DNA of 64,000 bases from Akkermansia muciniphila (GTDB lineage: Bacteria > Verrucomicrobiota > Verrucomicrobiia > Verrucomicrobiales > Akkermansiaceae): NCBI GenBank assembly GCA_947624785.1, contig CANQLV010000013.1, forward strand, positions 17,791-81,790, given 5' to 3'. How positions within the stretch are numbered: the stretch's first letter is position 1; each line of letters opens with the position of its first letter. Positions 53,931 through 54,001 of this stretch are shown in pieces. Position numbers and translations under genes: made by a program. Under the pieces are notes generated by a model, which was not told the DNA's origin, ran no database searches, and was given only the letters and a program-made list of their open reading frames with translations.

Positions 53931-53941
53931 CCGGGGGGGGG
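53931..53941 (-). repeat. poly-C(9) homopolymer (minus strand) at the 5' end of the GT10 fusion gene
   Basis: plus strand 'tccatccgggggggggtaag'; minus strand 'ttaCCCCCCCCCggATGgac'. Confidence 0.85.
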
Positions 53942-54001
53942 TAAGATAAAAGTTTTTCCGAGAAAACACGCGGTTTCCTGTCTAACCGGCACCAAACGGA
54001 G

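Follow-up and report, generated by a model that had tools for sequence, protein, structure and literature searches.

A nine-cytosine tract ahead of a predicted GT10 fucosyltransferase gene in Akkermansia is probably a recent, incidental homopolymer and not an on/off switch

The window, a 64,000-nucleotide stretch of Akkermansia muciniphila DNA, carries a minus-strand operon (51060-62676) whose multidomain fusions bring together GT31-like, GT11, GT6 and two GT10 domains. It opens with a fusion of a GT31-like galactosyltransferase, a methyltransferase and a GT11 domain of the alpha-1,2-fucosyltransferase family (60421..62676; PF01762, PF08241 and PF01531, all over cut-off), followed by a GT6 gene of the histo-blood-group A/B transferase family (58048..60408; PF03414, E 3e-34). 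A GT10 gene, referred to below as the second GT10 gene, joins the Pfam domains FucT_N and Glyco_transf_10 to CTP_transf_3, a cytidylyltransferase domain (54842..58069). Between it and the last gene of the operon lies a glycosyltransferase-like gene of 268 aa, which has a weak CgtA-like match below cut-off (54002..54808). The last gene, also a GT10 gene, is the one adjacent to the tract described below (51060..53930); it has 956 codons counted from an ATG at 53930 and contains FucT_N (PF18025, 34.7 bits against a cut-off of 27.2), Glyco_transf_10 (PF00852, 73.9 bits against a cut-off of 23.9) and a long C-terminal region without assignment. Its protein matches the solved alpha-1,3-fucosyltransferases 2nzw and 5zoi with E values of 6e-25 and 1e-24. 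With both Pfam domains above their curated cut-offs and the two structures matched at E ~1e-24, the assignment given in the preliminary description holds, and the product is a predicted GT10 fucosyltransferase. In animals, histo-blood-group and Lewis structures are the work of the families GT31, GT11, GT6 and GT10, and this gene set might therefore yield a host-like glycan. Literature searches for a comparable glycosyltransferase set in Akkermansia turned up nothing relevant. The GT6 protein and the two GT10 proteins (51060-60408) share a similar stretch of ~60 residues, HPQW...KWDxWG...KMEEG, which has no Pfam match.

Just ahead of the last gene, the minus strand carries a run of nine cytosines (53941-53933; G9 on the plus strand, 53933..53941), where direct reading gives ...TTTTATCTTA-CCCCCCCCC-GGATGGACTCT. 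The tract is the longest homopolymer of the 64-kb window, as previously noticed. It is preceded by a start codon at 53969 and followed by the ATG at 53930, which we call the inner ATG, and the two codons do share one frame across it. The upstream codon, first described as an ATG, is actually GTG (CCGCGTGTTTTCTCGG). From this codon through the inner ATG, the minus strand reads GTG TTT TCT CGG AAA AAC TTT TAT CTT ACC CCC CCC CGG ATG GAC. Markov models of order 0 and 2-5 predict 0.6-1.6 C/G runs of at least nine bases per 64 kb, the order 1 model alone predicts more (4.3), and the whole 3.08 Mb genome holds 14 such runs, or ~0.3 per 64 kb. The length of the tract is therefore unsurprising by itself. 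It falls within the range used to recognise contingency loci, mononucleotide runs of 8-9 bases or more, though that length is within chance expectation. Several annotated C/G runs of the genome lie in or beside housekeeping genes (a ketol-acid reductoisomerase, a 2-oxoacid dehydrogenase acyltransferase and a gyrase/topoisomerase IV subunit). A long C run is thus no simple marker of a surface gene here. It is the position of the tract, rather than its length, that deserved checking.

Two codons compete as the start of the enzyme. The upstream GTG (53967..53969) is the first start after a TAG stop in the same frame and follows the stop of the 268-aa gene by 32 nt. An AGGA (53976..53979), the sole Shine-Dalgarno-like motif near either start, ends 6 nt upstream of this GTG and is also found in the sister species. 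The inner ATG (53928..53930) has no Shine-Dalgarno-like motif upstream. The three genes that precede the 268-aa gene in the operon have GGAGG or GAGG at their starts; in the second GT10 gene, whose start has no tract, GGAGG precedes the ATG. Across the window, use of Shine-Dalgarno motifs is weak (10/40 first starts against a background of 17%). Reading from 53969, tracts of C6, C9 and C12 lead into the enzyme, C8 and C11 reach a stop 19 nt past the inner ATG, and C7 and C10 reach one 35 nt past it. This arithmetic bears out one part of the earlier proposal that slippage would throw the upstream start out of frame or alter initiation at the inner ATG. A change in tract length would frameshift the product solely if the GTG at 53969 is the start, and comparison with relatives points instead to the ATG at 53930.

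The inner ATG is the sole enzyme-frame start shared with both assemblies of the sister species and gives a protein beginning MDSPARIAFTDF. The FucT_N domain begins 6 residues after it. An IAFTDF motif likewise lies 6 residues past the inner ATG, compared with about 6-14 for the IAF/VAF of homologues and 19 when counted from the GTG. The segment between the GTG and the tract diverges by 16-18% from the sister species, against 12.5% for an intergenic spacer and 5-7% for the flanking coding sequence, and is faster-diverging than the latter (Fisher P 0.04 and 0.01). Judged by these comparisons, the leader diverges like intergenic DNA. Sequence ahead of a start can also diverge fast even if translated, which counts against the inner-ATG reading. 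On balance, the catalytic protein is most likely translated from 53930. If this conserved start, downstream of the tract, is the one in use, slippage would not frameshift the enzyme. An RNA-structure role for the leader was rejected, with positive z-scores against shuffled sequence (+1.9 and +1.7). Promoter-spacer variation at the tract was also rejected, no -35/-10 pair bracketing the tract being found when the sequence was read by eye.

The closest relatives at the locus are the genome G017, at 93% nucleotide identity, and the MAG contig L011, which is labelled Clostridiales, is probably mis-binned, and was the sole contig returned by the genome-contig scan. The two are 99.4% identical to one another and are treated as a single sister species. 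In place of the tract they have 8 bases that do not form a homopolymer (CGCCACTC and CGTCACTC). The sister species carries an ATG at the equivalent of the GTG at 53969, with the same AGGA, but this codon is out of frame with the enzyme, and translation from it would end after 19 residues (for G017, reading the sequence gives MFSRKNSYLTPLGWTLPFA). The enzyme frame itself is intact in G017, with 959 codons from the inner ATG. Between the window and G017, dN/dS is 0.28 for the tract-adjacent GT10 gene, 0.20 for the neighbouring GT10 gene and 0.10 for GT6. When the sister assemblies are compared with each other, dN/dS is 0.20, and synonymous changes exceed the neutral expectation (P = 0.014). These ratios point to purifying selection on the sister GT10 gene. 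A permanently OFF gene in the sister species is disfavoured by its intact frame and a dN/dS of about 0.2.

A third species, G056, has a decayed copy of the GT10 gene in which the corresponding bases, in an approximate alignment, are TGCTTCCC, again 8 with no homopolymer. Among the further GT10 homologues compared within the genus, none has a run of C7 or longer at the corresponding place. Because both the sister species and G056 have 8 bases and no tract, the tract and its ninth base appear derived, and the simplest history consistent with the alignments is that both arose in the lineage of the window. A tract that is kept in related strains or species and varies there in length was found neither in the sister species, nor in the outgroup pseudogene, nor among the GT10 homologues examined, in a comparison that includes one genome of the window species. 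Scans of viral contigs with the leader and with the GT10 protein gave no matches, and the control genomes yielded no GT10 for comparison. The second GT10 gene of G056 (L089) is without its FucT/GT10 part, residues 354-1075 alone matching, which suggests that this species has lost both fucosyltransferases. In the G017 orthologue of the 268-aa gene at 54002-54808 (L084), an extra G (G5 to G6) frameshifts the gene to 209 aa. L011 has G5 and is unshifted there, though it belongs to the same species; the G6 of G017 may be either a genuine mutation or an artefact of assembly.

Taken at face value, the frames at the tract would fit a contingency switch in which the GTG at 53969 is the main start, C9 is ON, and C8 and C10 end translation after 19-25 residues and are OFF, as in Helicobacter pylori futA/futB. 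Those alpha-1,3/4-fucosyltransferase genes also encode GT10/FucT_N enzymes with a poly-C run early in the reading frame; they have 12-14 C's near the 5' end, of a length that varies among isolates, which are found both in and out of frame (PMC2583950). The tract here, in contrast, has 9 C's, is absent from the sister species and stands before a conserved start. Within Akkermansia, a change from G9 to G10 in Amuc_1413, a putative polysaccharide export (Wzc-like) gene, truncates the protein with loss of mucin binding; the run slips in culture, where 87-91% of reads were changed (PMC13055324). In both cases a surface-polysaccharide gene of this genus has a G/C run of nine bases, but the Amuc_1413 run is well inside the coding sequence and C9 falls just before a conserved start codon. 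By analogy, slippage at a nine-base run in Akkermansia is physically plausible, and homopolymer switching in the genus would be nothing new in kind. Akkermansia cps1, a surface glycan locus, also phase-varies in this genus, although it is switched by DNA inversion, which is unrelated to homopolymer slippage (PMC13343947).

Phase variation does not follow from a homopolymer that lies in frame between two possible starts; such a claim requires that the tract persist in relatives and that the upstream start actually be in use. The AGGA before the GTG, with nothing similar before the inner ATG, agrees with the second of these, but the leader diverges as non-coding DNA does, and an ATG in frame directly past the tract would make the switch leak. 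On persistence, the sister species is fixed out of frame without a slippery tract while its gene remains intact under purifying selection, and the other GT10 homologues examined are without the tract. The frame arithmetic of the preliminary description is thus right, but the switch biology it proposes is not supported by the comparison, and we consider such a switch unlikely. Also unlikely is the broader proposition that slippage by one base in this lineage gave rise to a homopolymer switch turning a Lewis-type fucosyltransferase on and off within the GT31/GT11/GT6/GT10 operon, with which a gut commensal would vary host-like surface sugars. Were a switch nonetheless to exist, a commensal associated with mucus would be varying a host-like glycan in the manner of H. 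pylori.

We find it more likely that the homopolymer is recent and incidental, since the sister species has no run, has its upstream start out of frame, and still has an intact gene. C9 is probably a non-conserved tract in the short 5' leader of the GT10 gene, with translation beginning at the inner ATG and slippage sparing the enzyme frame. The homopolymer would have formed recently in the window lineage, inside this leader and 2 nt before the start at 53930, and the one extra base (8 to 9) would have put the upstream GTG in frame by accident. Initiation at the GTG may add a second, longer form of the protein with 13 extra residues. Changes in tract length would then alter the length of the leader and toggle a dispensable 13-residue extension, or would have a slight effect on how often the inner ATG is used, as when ribosomes finish a short leader peptide. 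The tract sequence, the frames, the sister and outgroup states, the selection on the gene and the divergence of the leader were observed directly; from them we infer the start chosen by the ribosome and the small effect of slippage.

A related proposal gives the leader a function through translational coupling. A short peptide would be translated from the codon at 53969 behind its Shine-Dalgarno motif, with re-initiation at the inner ATG; tract length would fix the frame of this peptide and where it stops, and would thereby tune output with no OFF state. The sister species is suggestive here, in that its upstream ATG behind the AGGA opens a frame of 19 residues that closes at a TAG 19 nt past the inner ATG, and C8 and C11 would give a sister-like leader frame in the window. 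Coupling would also account for the use of an ATG without a Shine-Dalgarno motif. The leader RNA, however, folds more weakly than shuffled sequence, as noted above, and so gives no sign of a regulatory structure; re-initiation being hypothetical here, we regard this proposal as unlikely and continue to prefer an incidental homopolymer.

The comparison also exposed a locus with a switch-like pattern across species elsewhere in the same genome. A C22 run on the minus strand (L072:2154-2175; G000:C3:112153-112174) lies in frame in a PATR autotransporter-like gene of 925+ residues. At this site G061 (L117) has C20, which is out of frame and leads to a stop 15 nt further on. The runs of G053 and G048 number 18 and 19 bases, and their contigs end at or close to the tract; in the sister G017 the run is lost. 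On this pattern of run lengths, the C22 locus is a strong candidate for an on/off contingency locus. It is a far better switch candidate than C9, which is weak by that standard because it is without the persistence of the tract across species and the change in length seen at C22. A further G9 run (L077:2015-2023; G000:C8:181814-181822) lies within the spacer of a promoter-like TTGGCA-N18-TATAAT, ahead of a gene for a Wzy_C (O-antigen ligase-like) protein. Relatives conserve the TTGGCA/TATAAT pair, and the spacer, counted by eye, is N17 in G017, which has G7, as it is in several more that do not have the run. This arrangement makes the G9 run a candidate for variation in promoter spacing.
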